Positions 76 to 43,611 of a stretch of 43,611 bases of DNA are shown here, one piece after another. Positions within the stretch are counted from its first letter, which is position 1; every line of letters starts with the position of its first letter. Under the pieces are notes generated by a model. It was given only the letters and a program-made list of their open reading frames with translations, had not been told where the DNA came from and did not search any database. The DNA is from an uncultured Candidatus Saccharibacteria bacterium (lineage in GTDB: Bacteria; Patescibacteriota; Saccharimonadia; Saccharimonadales; Saccharimonadaceae): the NCBI GenBank assembly GCA_947304135.1, contig CAMYZZ010000006.1, forward strand, positions 1-43,611. The letters are read 5' to 3'. The position numbers and the translations under genes are program-made.

Positions 76-178
76 GGAGAGCTTGAATTGTTTTTTCGGT
101 GTGGCCACAAATGCGCCACTGGCGCATTTGACGGTGTTGAAGACTCTACACACCTCAAAAACGAATTCAAGTTCTCCC
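76..178 (-). repeat. Family A interrupted palindrome, copy 1 (rplJ-rplL spacer)
   Basis: First of three copies of a structured repeat. The plus strand reads GTGGCCACAAA, a small hairpin (TGCGCC act GGCGCA), then TTTGACGGTGTTGAAGACTC. Long imperfectly complementary arms flank this (GAGAGCTTGAATT on the left, GAATTCAAGTTCTC on the right). Copies 2 and 3 have the same core but different arm and hairpin sequences, both still paired. The inner closing pairs are GGTGT/ACACC here and GGCGT/ACGCC in the other copies, which is compensatory change. No T-tract follows on either strand, so it is not a simple intrinsic terminator. Function unknown. Confidence 0.85.
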
Positions 179-321: not shown

Positions 322-843
322 TTAAGCAGCGTGGGCTTCTAGGCCAGATACGATAGCGGAAACACCGCCGGCAAGGCCGGAGATAGAATCTGTAGCTGGG
401 GAGAGAAGCTGAGCGACAACCTGGGCAATAAGTTCGTTCTTGGATGGAAGAGCTGCAAGAGCTTTGACATCTTCGAGCGGAACAACTGCACCAGCGTCGT
501 TGAACGCACCTGCGATCTCGAGCGCTTCGTGTTTCTTAGCGAATTCTGCTAGAACTTTAGCAGGAGCAACTTCGTCGCTATCAGATACGGCGTAGAGGAG
601 TTGACCCTCGAGGCCGGTTGTATCTGTATCTTTGTAAACGGCGATTTCGCCCATTGCTACGCGAACGAGACGGTTTTTGACGACTTTAATCTTAACACCG
701 TTCTCACGGGCGTTTTTGCGGAGTTCTTGGAGCTCAGCAACAGTAAGACCCTGATATTTGGCGAAGACGGTCATCTTAGAACTAGATAATAGCTCAGTCA
801 AATCAGCAACAAGAGTTTTCTTCTTGTCTTTTGAAATTGCCAT
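322..843 (-). CDS. rplJ: Ribosomal protein uL10
   Basis: 173 aa, the usual length for L10, which anchors the L7/L12 dimers to the GTPase-associated centre of the 50S subunit. The N-terminal half is typical of the family (the VFAKYQGLTVAELQELR region, then KVVKNRLVRVA), and the C-terminal helix that binds L12 is present. AAGGAAC precedes the ATG at 843. It is transcribed from a strong promoter at 976-1004 through an L10-type leader and is followed by rplL. Its own promoter is separated from rpoBC, which lies about 31 kb away in this genome instead of directly downstream. Confidence 0.97.
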   Translation of the reverse strand: MAISKDKKKTLVADLTELLSSSKMTVFAKYQGLTVAELQELRKNARENGVKIKVVKNRLVRVAMGEIAVYKDTDTTGLEGQLLYAVSDSDEVAPAKVLAEFAKKHEALEIAGAFNDAGAVVPLEDVKALAALPSKNELIAQVVAQLLSPATDSISGLAGGVSAIVSGLEAHAA

Positions 844-9357: not shown

Positions 9358-9933
9358 ATGTCGTTTTCGATAATCGCAGCACTAGGAAAAAACAGAGAAC
9401 TTGGCAAAAATGGTGGGTTGATTTTTAAGCTTCCAACCGATCTCAAGTATTTTAAAGAGACGACAATGGGGCATCCAGTGTTGGTTGGCGAACGAACTTT
9501 TCAGTCATTACCAGGAGTATTGCCAGGAAGAAAACATTATATCGTAACACACAAAACGAGGCTTTGTGTTGACGCATTTTCTCCGAAACGCTCCTCGCGC
9601 GCGTCGTCACGCGGCTCGTCGCCGGTCCTCGTCGTAACTGCGGACGTCGGAGAAAATGGTCAAGCACCAATCCTCGTTAATGATTTAGATAAGTTTATTT
9701 CTGAACATCAGGATTTGCCAGAGGAGATTTTTGTGATTGGTGGCGGGATGATTTATAAGCAATTATTAGACCATGCGGATAAATTGTATTTGACAGAAGT
9801 AGATGCGGAAGATGCAGAGGCGGATACATTCTTCCCGGAGTTTGATAAATCAAAATATAATCGGGTGGAGTTAGGAAAAGGTGAGGACAATGGCATAAAT
9901 TTCACTTTTGTTCGCTACGACAAGATTAAATAA
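9358..9933 (+). CDS. folA: Dihydrofolate reductase with in-frame palindromic insertion
   Basis: 191 aa against about 160 for typical DHFR. It reduces DHF to THF with NADPH. The N-terminus SIIAALGKNRELGKNGGLIFKLPTDLKYFK carries the substrate-loop features, VLVGERTFQSLPGVLPGRKHYIV follows, and FVIGGGMIYKQLL is the cofactor motif near residues 125-137. Between these, residues about 67-107 are encoded by a 122-bp palindrome; its core gives SPKRSSRASSRGSS and ends in ADVGEN. The insert falls in the surface loop that precedes the strand equivalent to VTWVKS in E. coli DHFR, so folding can survive. The frame stays open and downstream motifs are intact, so the gene is probably functional. Confidence 0.93.
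   Translation: MSFSIIAALGKNRELGKNGGLIFKLPTDLKYFKETTMGHPVLVGERTFQSLPGVLPGRKHYIVTHKTRLCVDAFSPKRSSRASSRGSSPVLVVTADVGENGQAPILVNDLDKFISEHQDLPEEIFVIGGGMIYKQLLDHADKLYLTEVDAEDAEADTFFPEFDKSKYNRVELGKGEDNGINFTFVRYDKIK
9556..9677 (+). repeat. Family B coding palindrome, copy 1 (inside folA)
   Basis: A 122-bp interrupted palindrome. The core ends are TTTTCTCCGA (9577-9586) and TCGGAGAAAA (9647-9656). The outer arms from ACGAGG at 9556 to CCTCGT at 9677 are complementary with few mismatches. The core also holds CGCCGGTCCTCGT and AACTGCGGACGTCGGAG, shared word for word or nearly so with the leuS copy. The core is visibly richer in G+C than the surrounding gene. It adds codons without stops. Confidence 0.88.
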
Positions 9934-16669: not shown

Positions 16670-16894
16670 TTAATCTTTTAGGCGAAAGCTGATTCTGCCC
16701 TTTGTAAGATCATACGGGGTTAACTCAACTTTGACCTTATCGCCCGGAACGAGACGGATGTAGTTTTTACGCATTTTTCCGCTCATATGGGCAATAATAA
16801 TATGACCATTCTCGAGTTCGACCCGAAATTGGGTATTAGGCAACGCCTCAACGACTTTGCCGGTGAGTTCTATCACTTCCTTTTGACTAGCCAT
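16670..16894 (-). CDS. infA: Translation initiation factor IF-1
   Basis: 74 aa, one OB-fold. IF-1 binds the 30S A site. [57 protein letters not shown] is almost textbook in sequence. A promoter only a few bases upstream (16908-16936) implies a leader of about six nucleotides. The gene starts a separately transcribed alpha-operon segment downstream of a Family A palindrome. Confidence 0.97.
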
Positions 16895-16953: not shown

Positions 16954-17069
16954 ATTCCAAGAAAACTTGCTGAGGTTTCTAGGCGTGGCCACAAAAGTGC
17001 CACCGGCACTTTTGACGGTGTTGAAGACTCTACACGCCTAGAAACCCGCAGCTGCGTTTTCTTAGGAAT
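16954..17069 (-). repeat. Family A interrupted palindrome, copy 2 (sortase-infA spacer)
   Basis: Core GGCGTGGCCACAAA, hairpin AGTGCC acc GGCACT, TTTGACGGTGTTGAAGACTC, closing ACACGCC. The arms ATTCCAAGAAAAC and GTTTTCTTAGGAAT continue the stem, and GGTTTCTAGG pairs with CCTAGAAACC. The right arm contains the last codons and stop of the sortase gene (TTA at 17062-17064), so the left arm looks like an inverted copy of the gene's own 3' end. Confidence 0.88.
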
Positions 17070-17844
17070 TTTCTTCCTCAGCTTCTTTTTGCTTGTCGCG
17101 TTTTTCTTGGAGTTCGTTTTTGATTTCGGTTTTTTCGAAATTGGTGTTTTCTGCGACGAGGACGGCGCGGACGAATTGGCGCGAGAGGTAGGTTTGTTGC
17201 CTCTGCGACCAGACGCCGCTACAAGTGATAAGGGTGAGGGATTCACGACCTGTTTCTGGCGAAGACATGGCTTTTGCCATATAGGCGTCGGAGTCTGCAA
17301 GCGCGACTTCTTCGTTTTCTACGACTTCATAGCGGAAAAATTTACCATCGCCTCGCTCGATAGTAAGTAAATCCCCGGTTTGGAGATCTGGCAAATGCTT
17401 AAACACGCCCTCAATGTTTGGGCCGCCATTATGTCCATCGATCAGAAGCGTACCACCAGAACCTGGTTTGCCCGAGCTTCTATACCATCCAACGTCAAAA
17501 ATGTTATCCGGCACAAGCAAACGGCCGACGTTATTTAATCCAACTTCTCTGACTCTTGCGCGGTCGACATTTAGTCTAGGGATAGATAAGAATCTTGGTT
17601 TATCGGCTGCAACTTTCCAGGCCTGTTTCATTTGTTCAGTGACGTCTGATTCGTCGACTGTTTCTGGGGTGTCCGTTGGGGCATTTGTGGAGGATACCGC
17701 CGTGGCTCTTGCGGAACCTTCTTTGCTGGAGTAGTAATACGCTTCCCAGATCGCAATCTTGATGATACAGATAGCTAAGATTAGGAGGATAATACCCCAA
17801 ATGATGCGTGGTAGGTTCTTTTTCCAGTTAAATTTGAGCGCCAT
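17062..17844 (-). CDS. Sortase family transpeptidase
   Basis: 260 aa. An N-terminal membrane anchor (residues about 12-32) is followed by a Thr/Ser-rich spacer and a sortase domain (about 84-232): DGHNGG with catalytic His138, TLITCSG with catalytic Cys208, and the SRQFVRAVL arginine (Arg222). Sortases cleave sorting signals and join surface proteins to the wall or to each other; the subclass (E/D/F-like) is uncertain. The C-terminal 30 residues are Lys/Glu-rich. It overlaps the secY stop by one base, so the two are translationally coupled. The location between secY and infA, where adk and map are usual, is unusual. Confidence 0.88.
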   Translation of the reverse strand: MALKFNWKKNLPRIIWGIILLILAICIIKIAIWEAYYYSSKEGSARATAVSSTNAPTDTPETVDESDVTEQMKQAWKVAADKPRFLSIPRLNVDRARVREVGLNNVGRLLVPDNIFDVGWYRSSGKPGSGGTLLIDGHNGGPNIEGVFKHLPDLQTGDLLTIERGDGKFFRYEVVENEEVALADSDAYMAKAMSSPETGRESLTLITCSGVWSQRQQTYLSRQFVRAVLVAENTNFEKTEIKNELQEKRDKQKEAEEENS

Positions 17845-23271: not shown

Positions 23272-23679
23272 TTACTCCTCTGTACTTTCTGAGGCAGATG
23301 CTTCGTTGCCGTCTTCTTCGGACACGCTCGAGGCCGCTCGGCCAAGCTTACGGTCCGAAGAAGAGGCAACGTGCGCATCTGCTCCAACCTTTTCAGGTAA
23401 CTCAACTTCGTTGACGTTATCTTTAAGAGCGATAGTGCCGTGAGATCTCTCAAGTACCTTCACTAGCTTGTAGGAACAGGTCTTAGAGAATGGACGGCAG
23501 GCGACGATTTCGACTTTATCGCCGACTTTTGCTTCGTTGTTCTCATCGTGGGCAGTGTATTTACGAGTTTTCGTATACTGCTTGCGATAGAGAGGGTGCG
23601 TTTCACGAGAAGCGATGGAGACAGTAATAGTCTTATCGCGTTTGTCGGAAGAAACGAGACCAATTAGTGTCTGTGCCAT
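23272..23679 (-). CDS. rpsQ: Ribosomal protein uS17 with palindromic C-terminal insertion
   Basis: 135 aa against about 85 for S17. The first 90 residues are a normal OB-fold S17 (LIGLVSSDKRDKTITVSI, HPLYRKQYTKTRKYTAHDE, GDKVEIVACRPFSKTCSYKLVKVLE). The last 40, beginning near GADAHVASSSDRKLG, are encoded largely by an 89-bp palindrome and end in an acidic Ser/Glu tail. The tail probably projects from the ribosome surface. Its start is 1 bp from the rplP stop, leaving no room for rpmC (uL29). Confidence 0.95.
   Translation of the reverse strand: MAQTLIGLVSSDKRDKTITVSIASRETHPLYRKQYTKTRKYTAHDENNEAKVGDKVEIVACRPFSKTCSYKLVKVLERSHGTIALKDNVNEVELPEKVGADAHVASSSDRKLGRAASSVSEEDGNEASASESTEE
23294..23382 (-). 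repeat. Coding palindrome in the 3' end of rpsQ
   Basis: GCAGATGC (23294-23301) pairs with GCATCTGC (23375-23382). Moving inward, CGTTGCC pairs with GGCAACG, and TCTTCTTCGGAC with GTCCGAAGAAGA. The loop holds its own GGCC gctc GGCC. It has the same architecture as Family B but no clear sequence identity apart from a short ACGCTC after the left arm. Confidence 0.78.
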
Positions 23680-36755: not shown

Positions 36756-36776
36756 GGTTGATCTAGGTTATTTAGA

Positions 36777-36872
36777 AGCGGGTCCTGGCTAAATAGGAGT
36801 GACACAGCAAAAAAGCGGGTCCTGGCTAAACACGAGTGACACAGCAAAAAAGCGGGTCCTGGCTAAACACGA
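36777..36872 (-). repeat. 37-bp tandem repeat, 2.6 units, each with a T-tract
   Basis: Units start at 36777, 36814 and 36851; units 1 and 2 are 37 bp each, beginning AGCGGGTCCTGGCTAAA and ending CACAGCAAAAA. The third is cut after 22 bp, where it becomes the arm of the large hairpin at 36852-36983. On the minus strand, each unit offers GGACCCGCTTTTTT, so the terminator end of khpA is repeated. Confidence 0.9.
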
Positions 36873-36990
36873 ATTTTCAATCGTTGACTTGAATCGAAAA
36901 AATGAATCATTACATGACTCATTTTTCCGATTCAAATCTTCTTACGTTCAAAAACGATTGAAAATTGTGTTTACGCCACCCGCTTTTTTT
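36852..36990. terminator. Very long bidirectional terminator hairpin
   Basis: GCGGGT...ACCCGC closes a 132-bp stem-loop; inner pairs include TTTTCAATCGTT with AACGATTGAAAA and TTGAATCG with CGATTCAA. Seven T follow on the plus strand and six on the minus strand. It ends khpA transcripts and blocks plus-strand entry. Confidence 0.85.
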
Positions 36991-36996
36991 CGGTTT

Positions 36997-38847: not shown

Positions 38848-38955
38848 GCAAGATAGCAAGCTAGGGTTCTTTGGCGTGGCCACAAACGTGCCGCAGGCAC
38901 GTTTGACGGTGTTGAAGACTCTACACGCCTAAGAACCCGTAGCTTGCCATCTTGC
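38848..38955 (-). repeat. Family A interrupted palindrome, copy 3 (after rnc)
   Basis: Core GGCGTGGCCACAAA, hairpin CGTGCC gca GGCACG, TTTGACGGTGTTGAAGACTC, then ACACGCC. The arms GCAAGATAGCAAGCTA and TAGCTTGCCATCTTGC are specific to this copy. It starts 12 bp after the rnc stop codon, in the same orientation relative to its upstream gene as the other two copies. Confidence 0.88.
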
Positions 38956-38966
38956 CGCACCCCCTC

Positions 38967-39728
38967 CTAATGATGTTTGCCGCCGGAGCCGGTGGGAAGT
39001 TTGACAGGGTCAAAATCTTCGTAGTTTTCGCGATAGTATTTGATAGCGTCGTAGGCGGCTTTGCCCTGGGCCTCCTGTTTAGAGTGGCCCTCGCCAGTGC
39101 CACGGCGTTCGCGACCCACATAGACTTCGACCGTAAAGGTTTTGTCGTGGTCTGGGCCCTCTTCTTTGACGGTGCGATAAACTGGGGTGACACCGTCATA
39201 GTGCTGTGTTACCTCTTGGAAGAATGATTTTGGATCACGCCAGGTGCCTTCTTCTATCATGGTTTCTGTCTTGGACAAAATGTGTTTCTCGATAAATTTG
39301 CGAGCCACTTCGTAGCCTTGGTCGACGTAAATTGAGCCGACTACGGCCTCAAAACAATCTGCCATAATTACCTCGTGGGCGCGGGCAGAACCGGATTTTT
39401 CGCCGTTGCTAAGGCGGATAAGCGGAGCGTATCCAAGTTTGGTGCCGGCGTCACAAATAGAGTCCGTGCGGACCAAAGCGCTCCTCCAGGCGGTCATAAT
39501 ACCTTCTGGCTGGTCGTAATTTTTGTAGAGAAAATCAGAGACGACAAGCTCCAAGACCGCATCGCCCAAAAATTCTAGGCGCTCGTTGTGTTCGGCGTGG
39601 GAGTTTTTGTGTTCGTTGACATAGCTCCTGTGAGTAAGCGCGGTGATTAGGAGGTTGATATCGTGATACTCAAAGCCAAGCGCATCTTTAGCGAACTGCT
39701 CGTACTGCTCTTTTACCTCTTTGTTCAT
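38967..39728 (-). CDS. rnc: Ribonuclease III
   Basis: 253 aa. RNase III cuts double-stranded RNA, including rRNA precursors. The catalytic signature NERLEFLGDAVLEL spans residues 48-61 (Glu52, Asp56), with Asp124 and Glu127 in MADCFEA. The dsRNA-binding domain follows (DPKSFFQEVTQHYDGVTPVY ... GHSKQEAQGKAAYDAI). ATG 39728 touches the preceding gene's stop. Given the large perfect hairpins nearby, its substrates could include these transcripts. Confidence 0.96.
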   Translation of the reverse strand: MNKEVKEQYEQFAKDALGFEYHDINLLITALTHRSYVNEHKNSHAEHNERLEFLGDAVLELVVSDFLYKNYDQPEGIMTAWRSALVRTDSICDAGTKLGYAPLIRLSNGEKSGSARAHEVIMADCFEAVVGSIYVDQGYEVARKFIEKHILSKTETMIEEGTWRDPKSFFQEVTQHYDGVTPVYRTVKEEGPDHDKTFTVEVYVGRERRGTGEGHSKQEAQGKAAYDAIKYYRENYEDFDPVKLPTGSGGKHH

Positions 39729-42949: not shown

Positions 42950-43611
42950 TTAGACTACGAGGTTTAGGAGCTTGGCTTTTTTGACATAGATGGTCTTTTT
43001 GACACCACCTTTAGTGAAGTTCTGGACATTCTTGTCGTCTAGGGCGAGCTTCTCGATCTTGGCCTGGTCTTCTAGGTCGCTAGCGGCAACTTTGAGCTTG
43101 GCACGGAGTTTGCCGTTAACCTGGACAACAACTTCTACAGTATCTTCTACTAGATATTTCTCGTCCCAGACTGGCCAGACGTCGTCTGCACCAAATTTTT
43201 CCAACATCTCGGAGGCGAGGTGTGGAGCGAAAGGTTTCAAGAGGCGAGCAAGCGTAATGATATCATCGTCGCTCGCGCCAACTTTGTACAGCTCGTTGAC
43301 ATATTCCATCATGGCGGAGACGGCGGTGTTGAAGTTGTGGCGGTGGAGATCCTCTGTCACTTTCTTTACCGTTCTATTCCGCAAGGAAGCCGTCAACAAC
43401 GAGTTTTCTCCGAAACGCTCCGTCGCTTCGCTCGCCGTCTTCGACGGGGCGCGCCCGTCTTTACGGGTCTCGTCGCCGGTCCTCGTAGCAACTGCGGACG
43501 TCGGAGAAAACTGTTGTTTTCCGGCTTCCTTGAAGCAGAGGTTCCAGCAGCGGTTAAGGAAGCGGTAGACGCCGCCGACGGATTTTGGATCCCAAGCAGC
43601 ATCTTGGTCGT
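42950..43611 (-). CDS. leuS: Leucyl-tRNA synthetase, C-terminal part with in-frame insertion
   Basis: Runs off the right edge; about 220 C-terminal residues are visible. RFLNRCWNLCFKEAGKQQ and LRNRTVKKVTEDLHRHNFNTAVSAMMEYVNELYK belong to the anticodon-binding domain of class I LeuRS, and VVVQVNGKLRAKLKVAA with the KTIYVKKAKLLNLVV end is the C-terminal domain. Between them about 45 extra residues (FSPTSAVATRTGDETRKDG ... ERFGEN) come from a palindromic element. The frame is continuous across it with no stop. The insert falls in a loop that is also variable in E. coli LeuRS, so activity is probably kept. Confidence 0.92.
   Translation of the reverse strand, partial: DQDAAWDPKSVGGVYRFLNRCWNLCFKEAGKQQFSPTSAVATRTGDETRKDGRAPSKTASEATERFGENSLLTASLRNRTVKKVTEDLHRHNFNTAVSAMMEYVNELYKVGASDDDIITLARLLKPFAPHLASEMLEKFGADDVWPVWDEKYLVEDTVEVVVQVNGKLRAKLKVAASDLEDQAKIEKLALDDKNVQNFTKGGVKKTIYVKKAKLLNLVV
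43382..43532 (-). repeat. Family B coding palindrome, copy 2 (inside leuS)
   Basis: 151 bp. Core ends TTTTCTCCGAAACGCTCC and ACGTCGGAGAAAA are shared with the folA copy, as are CGTCGCCGGTCCTCGT and AACTGCGGACG. The middle is about 27 bp longer than in folA. The outer arms CAAGGAAGCCG and CGGCTTCCTTG, plus CAACAACGAG against CTGTTGTT, are specific to this site. Relative to the reading frame its orientation is opposite to that in folA, yet both stay open. Confidence 0.88.

Follow-up and report, generated by a model that had tools for sequence, protein, structure and literature searches.

The window analysed here is a 43,611-nt stretch of a contig (CAMYZZ010000006.1) from the draft genome of an uncultured Candidatus Saccharibacteria bacterium. 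Three of its intergenic gaps each hold a copy of a long palindromic element, which we call family A. The copies, their cores and the genes that border them are the following.

76-178, plus strand: family A copy 1, arms and core, between rplJ and rplL
104-148, plus strand: invariant core of copy 1, GCCACAAA-hairpin-TTTGACGGTGTTGAAGACTCTA
322-843, minus strand: rplJ (ribosomal protein L10; PF00466), upstream of copy 1
16670-16894, minus strand: infA (IF-1), downstream of copy 2
16954-17069, plus strand: family A copy 2, between the sortase gene and infA
16988-17032, plus strand: invariant core of copy 2
17062-17844, minus strand: sortase gene (PF04203), upstream of copy 2
38848-38955, plus strand: family A copy 3, between rnc and the next gene
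38879-38923, plus strand: invariant core of copy 3
38967-39728, minus strand: rnc (RNase III), upstream of copy 3

The original prediction placed copy 1 downstream of rplJ; its actual position is inside one operon, with rplL on the other side. Copies 2 and 3 also occupy gaps between same-strand genes. The right arm of copy 2 covers the stop codon of the sortase gene (17062-17064) together with its last codons, and infA has its own promoter-like site at 16936-16908. Two further structures lie near copy 1. A second long hairpin (190-303) adjoins it in the same gap; with arms of about 27 bp and a different core, it is essentially single-copy in the genome and shares the overall plan of family A. 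Ahead of rplJ, at 894-982, is a ribosomal protein L10 leader (Rfam RF00557), which barely exceeds the gathering score.

A motif search recovered both invariant motifs, exactly and on the plus strand, at all three places where they had been reported. A 20-mer had three matches at three or fewer mismatches, against 0.01 expected, and GTGGCCACAAA had three exact matches. Whole-genome searches added three copies outside the window, for a genome total of six.

C5:35534-35604, minus strand of the contig: family A copy on contig C5
C8:19750-19820, minus strand of the contig: family A copy on contig C8
C11:9012-9082, minus strand of the contig: family A copy on contig C11

The six copies align without internal gaps. 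Their invariant core consists of GCCACAAA, an internal hairpin and TTTGACGGTGTTGAAGACTCTR, from which the C5 copy deviates at two positions. This core, about 45 bp long, is a hairpin with conserved unpaired strands; the internal hairpin varies in sequence and keeps its pairing. Six closing pairs flank the core, followed by the arms; the GTG that precedes GCCACAAA and the CAC that follows CTCTR are part of the variable closing helix. The arms extend over 28-36 aligned positions (bp) per copy and pair almost perfectly, with sequences that differ between copies.

All three window copies folded as RNA far better than shuffled sequences, whichever strand was used (z scores of -7.3 to -10.9). When the proposed structure was applied to the alignment of all six copies, 95.9% of its cells held standard pairs, compared with 83% after shuffling and at most 51% after sliding. 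Of the 25 pairs, 12 had changes at both positions and none had a change at a single position, so the compensatory pairing predicted for the internal hairpin and closing pairs is real and stronger than claimed. The prediction of 20-30 bp arms with preserved pairing was also correct, and the arms of the additional copies, whose loss of pairing had been named as evidence against the idea, are still paired. Summed over the six copies, the arm pairs comprised 177 Watson-Crick, 3 G-T, 2 A-C and 5 other combinations, with 10 gap positions; the G-T and A-C counts, read on the core strand, are too few to show a bias.

The original prediction read these features as the signature of a functional structured nucleic acid. 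Such an RNA would be a 3′-UTR or intercistronic element for processing, protection or regulation, with its pairing under selection. Pairing conserved through double changes, invariant single strands in the core, and the placement of all three window copies between same-strand genes in one orientation agree with this. The preserved arm pairing, however, does not imply an RNA function, because template switching at the DNA level preserves pairing without selection on RNA. Copying of the reverse complement creates and maintains hairpins with perfect stems and produces multi-base compensatory changes without G-U intermediates (PMC8794818). If selection on RNA had kept independently drifting arms paired, wobble intermediates would be expected; the small number of wobbles of either kind in family A counts against such selection.

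The distribution of family A also speaks against a conserved RNA. It was absent from all 149 relatives examined, 59 of them from the same genus, and a scan for exact 20-mers in other bacterial genome contigs and in viral contigs returned only unrelated coding matches. Rfam gave no match at a family A element; its matches in the window were just a tRNA and the L10 leader. Among the genomes examined, family A thus appears to be a young family restricted to this species.

Other classes of element were rejected as well. A Rho-independent terminator does not fit, as no T tract follows the hairpin; the original prediction had noted this, and we found no terminator-like site at copy 2 and, by eye, none in the flanks of copies 1 and 3. 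CRISPR/tracrRNA, attC sites and known self-cleaving ribozymes are unlikely, since the core appears to lack their defining motifs and sits in ORFs.

The orientation of the copies was uniform in the window, as predicted, but not genome-wide. Five of the six copies are intergenic. Copies 1-3 and the C8 copy, the four intergenic ones to which a direction can be assigned, are all antisense to the surrounding genes. The neighbors of the C5 copy converge on it, and the last codons and the stop codons of both genes are part of its arms. The C11 copy is in the sense orientation inside an ORF, opposite to the window copies. The mostly intergenic placement and the orientation shared by four copies would fit a regulatory role and count against reading family A as a mobile element; the shared orientation is a tendency of these four intergenic copies, not a rule. 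Directly before the C5 copy, at about 5500-5650 of L015 (contig C5), the C-terminus of an acyltransferase-like ORF (FEDSDIANYRKKIN) resembles a relic of the family A core edge GAAGATTCTGATA.

The C11 copy is in frame within the receiver domain of a two-component response regulator, where it lengthens the region behind the first helix. The protein has 162 amino acids, compared with mostly 115-130 in uninserted orthologs. The outer left arm of this copy is formed by codons for KQQV. The ortholog lengths imply that these codons are host sequence, which makes the right arm their reverse-complement copy. There are two right arms in series, both of which pair with the left arm. The one adjacent to the core is complementary to it at 31 of 32 positions. 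The second is decayed but clearly related (it scored 33 where shuffled sequences averaged 16, and none of 2000 shuffles scored as high). Each segment starts with the core edge GAAGACTCTG, at a spacing of exactly 42 nt, and there is no pairing beyond the third repeat. This footprint would be expected if a nascent strand repeatedly snapped back, copied the left flank and realigned at the edge of the core. A layout that recalls these serial arms is found in the window at 36776-36992, where tandem 37-nt repeats (AAGCGGGTCCTGGCTAAAYANGAGTGACACAGCAAAA) are followed by nested inverted repeats.

The divergence of the arms was then compared with that of the core. Between family A copies, identity was 98% in the core, 58% in the inner 15 nt of the arm and 34% in the next 15 nt; the arms therefore did not drift in step with the core. 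A weak consensus of the element (RGGTTTTT...) persists over the inner part of about 15 bp, and the outer part is specific to the site. Outer arms scored 19-34 with their own partners and 7-13 with the partners of other copies; these arm tests were local alignments free to choose their own start, so the cross-copy pairings served as the control. Sequence of the host gene makes up part of one arm in several copies.

This pattern bears on whether family A is an ordinary MITE or REPIN, that is, a transposase-mobilized element with fixed terminal inverted repeats, the differences between arms being due to divergence alone. REP elements and REPINs have fixed palindromes and an associated RAYT (Y1) transposase. 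Like them and other MITEs, the elements described here are short, dispersed, palindromic, non-autonomous repeats (PMC3116915, PMC3733652). They are also non-coding, and the weak consensus in the inner arm would be expected of diverged terminal repeats. Their arms, however, are not fixed: the outer parts are unrelated between copies whose cores are nearly identical, and each pairs best with its own partner. A search for the Y1 transposase (PF01797) found no match in this genome, whereas 5 of 14 control genomes had one. No target-site duplication was seen, and the orthologs are too diverged to offer a near empty site for that comparison. We regard this explanation as improbable.

The window contains two other families of palindromes. 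Repeat searches revealed a GC-rich palindrome at two places (family B), and a third kind (family C) ends a ribosomal protein gene.

9555-9678, minus strand: family B element inside folA (9358-9933), in frame, antisense to folA
23294-23382, strand not assigned: family C palindrome at the 3′ coding end of rpsQ
43382-43532, minus strand: family B element inside leuS, in frame, sense to leuS

The family C palindrome encodes the C-terminal tail of ribosomal protein S17, and its core is the same as that of a leuS insert in species G018. Family B is the genus-wide counterpart of family A, with the same anatomy. A covariance model (R2, trained on five copies and applied at E ≤1e-4 with strict filters) detected it in 47 of the 60 genomes searched within the genus; the 40 searched from other genera of the order gave no match, and the weaker of the matches may come from related families. 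Thirty-four of the 36 strong copies lie in stop-free frames, 19 of them sense and 15 antisense to the gene, and many share a loop of a given gene between species. Random occurrence in both orientations with no transcription had been named beforehand as evidence against a functional RNA; of this, both orientations were found.

The arms of family B behave as those of family A do. For outer arms, pairing within a copy exceeded the 99th percentile of the cross-copy pairings in 32 of 36 cases (mean score 25.6 for own partners, 10.3 across copies). Left arms taken from different copies resembled one another no more than expected by chance. Mismatches read on the host mRNA strand comprise 13 G-U and 13 A-C. 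Selection on an RNA hairpin would let G-U pass but not A-C, so the absence of a G-U excess suggests a process at the DNA level. With family A absent from relatives, an in-frame C11 copy, arms that diverge apart from the core, this pattern of mismatches and family B in ORFs in both orientations, a functional structured RNA is not supported. We consider that explanation unlikely, and a conserved regulatory function of the RNA is probably not what maintains these elements.

Orthologous genes illustrate how the inserts are placed (the names leuS, RsuA-like and recX-like were assigned by reading the sequences). Across the genus, the same loop of leuS carries in-frame palindromic inserts in several other species. 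Among the orthologs read, seven had strong hairpins and the remainder had shorter, palindrome-free loops. In leuS, in an RsuA-like pseudouridine synthase gene and in a recX-like gene, the same site holds cores in opposite orientations in different species. The RsuA-like genes L120, L121 and L129 share one insertion site in three species, with both core orientations and similar arms; this pattern reflects either independent insertions or inversion of the top of the hairpin. The right arm of the leuS insert extends into the conserved Arg-His codons in species G004 and G005. In the RsuA-like gene, by contrast with such copying of the host flank, uninserted orthologs can match exactly the length left after removal of both 12-nt arms. 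Both arms there thus lie within the inserted DNA and came with the element, so host-flank copying is not universal, and an arm that is inverted host flank can be claimed for several copies but not for all. It is safest to say that the inner arm is the element's own, and that the palindrome often reaches on into the host flank or has been rebuilt out of it.

The arms might instead be older than the insertion. If the core inserted into the loops of long hairpins that already existed, the arms would be the target and not the product. This would explain why the arms are self-complementary and unique to each copy, and why both ends of some host genes lie within arms, as for the convergent genes at the C5 copy. 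Uninserted sites do not look like such targets. Those of leuS have no long inverted repeat (best score 10-16, in a test that permitted no large loop, was blind to the inserts' own arms for that reason and is used here for uninserted sites only), and uninserted RsuA-like genes have no arms at all. The serial right arms of the C11 copy, moreover, require a copying step. Pre-existing hairpins therefore seem a poor candidate for the origin of the arms.

An artefact of assembly, or a chimera, is very improbable. The genome is a draft of 22 contigs and long palindromes are difficult to assemble; against this, dozens of genomes that were assembled independently of one another show the same anatomy, and the elements there are in frame with conserved genes.

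Taken together, these results suggest that family A probably consists of young, species-restricted mobile (selfish) palindromic DNA elements, which work like Rickettsia palindromic elements and whose arms are produced or mended by template switching. In support of mobility, uninserted orthologs of the leuS and RsuA-like genes are shorter at the insertion site. A fixed core would have inserted at six places, in intergenic gaps and at one in-frame site in a protein gene, and a second arm would then have been made, extended or repaired by template switching. In that step, the nascent strand may fold back on the inner palindrome, copy its own upstream flank and return to the template. In some copies, host sequence would thus form one arm and its reverse-complement copy the other. 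Movement of the elements, snap-back copying and the absence of a benefit to the host are all inferred. A more specific version, which we put forward tentatively, is that the elements spread by hairpin priming: the flank of the target would be reverse-copied into a second arm. Each insertion would thereby make the terminal inverted repeats out of its target, and later snap-back events would renew them.

To our knowledge, no enzyme that mobilizes Rickettsia palindromic elements has been described. Those elements and their Wolbachia counterparts resemble the ones described here in being palindromes of about 100-150 bp that form several families and occur both between genes and in frame within ORFs, with different families at the same site of orthologs (PMC3767692, PMC10969869). 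The elements tested, long hairpins of 103-123 nt, are in that size range. Families A, B and C all occur in the window, which parallels the several families in one genome or genus, and the frame is preserved in the ORFs concerned (one of 6 copies for family A, 34 of 36 for family B). Rickettsia palindromic elements belong to another bacterial group and their families are defined by conserved sequence, whereas the outer arms of the present elements differ from site to site and consist in part of host sequence; the likeness is one of anatomy, not of sequence comparison.

Two other systems share part of this anatomy. The template switching cited above is a mutation process in RNA genes (PMC8794818), not a source of arms for a mobile element as proposed here. 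The coding palindromes of nematomorph mitochondria are also long inverted repeats in translated genes, with a mixture of shared and species-specific positions; they differ in having no common core and no insertion, and both of their arms encode conserved residues (PMC6649704).

We found no report of such palindromic elements in Saccharibacteria in the open-access literature. In-frame palindromic elements are best known from Rickettsiales, and here they are abundant in a genus of bacteria with tiny genomes, with palindromic inserts repeatedly placed in essential genes such as leuS. Strong covariation between copies is usually taken as proof of a functional RNA, and these families point to a trap, in that it can arise from template switching of DNA. 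A fixed core with matching arms specific to each site provides a handle on how such elements move.
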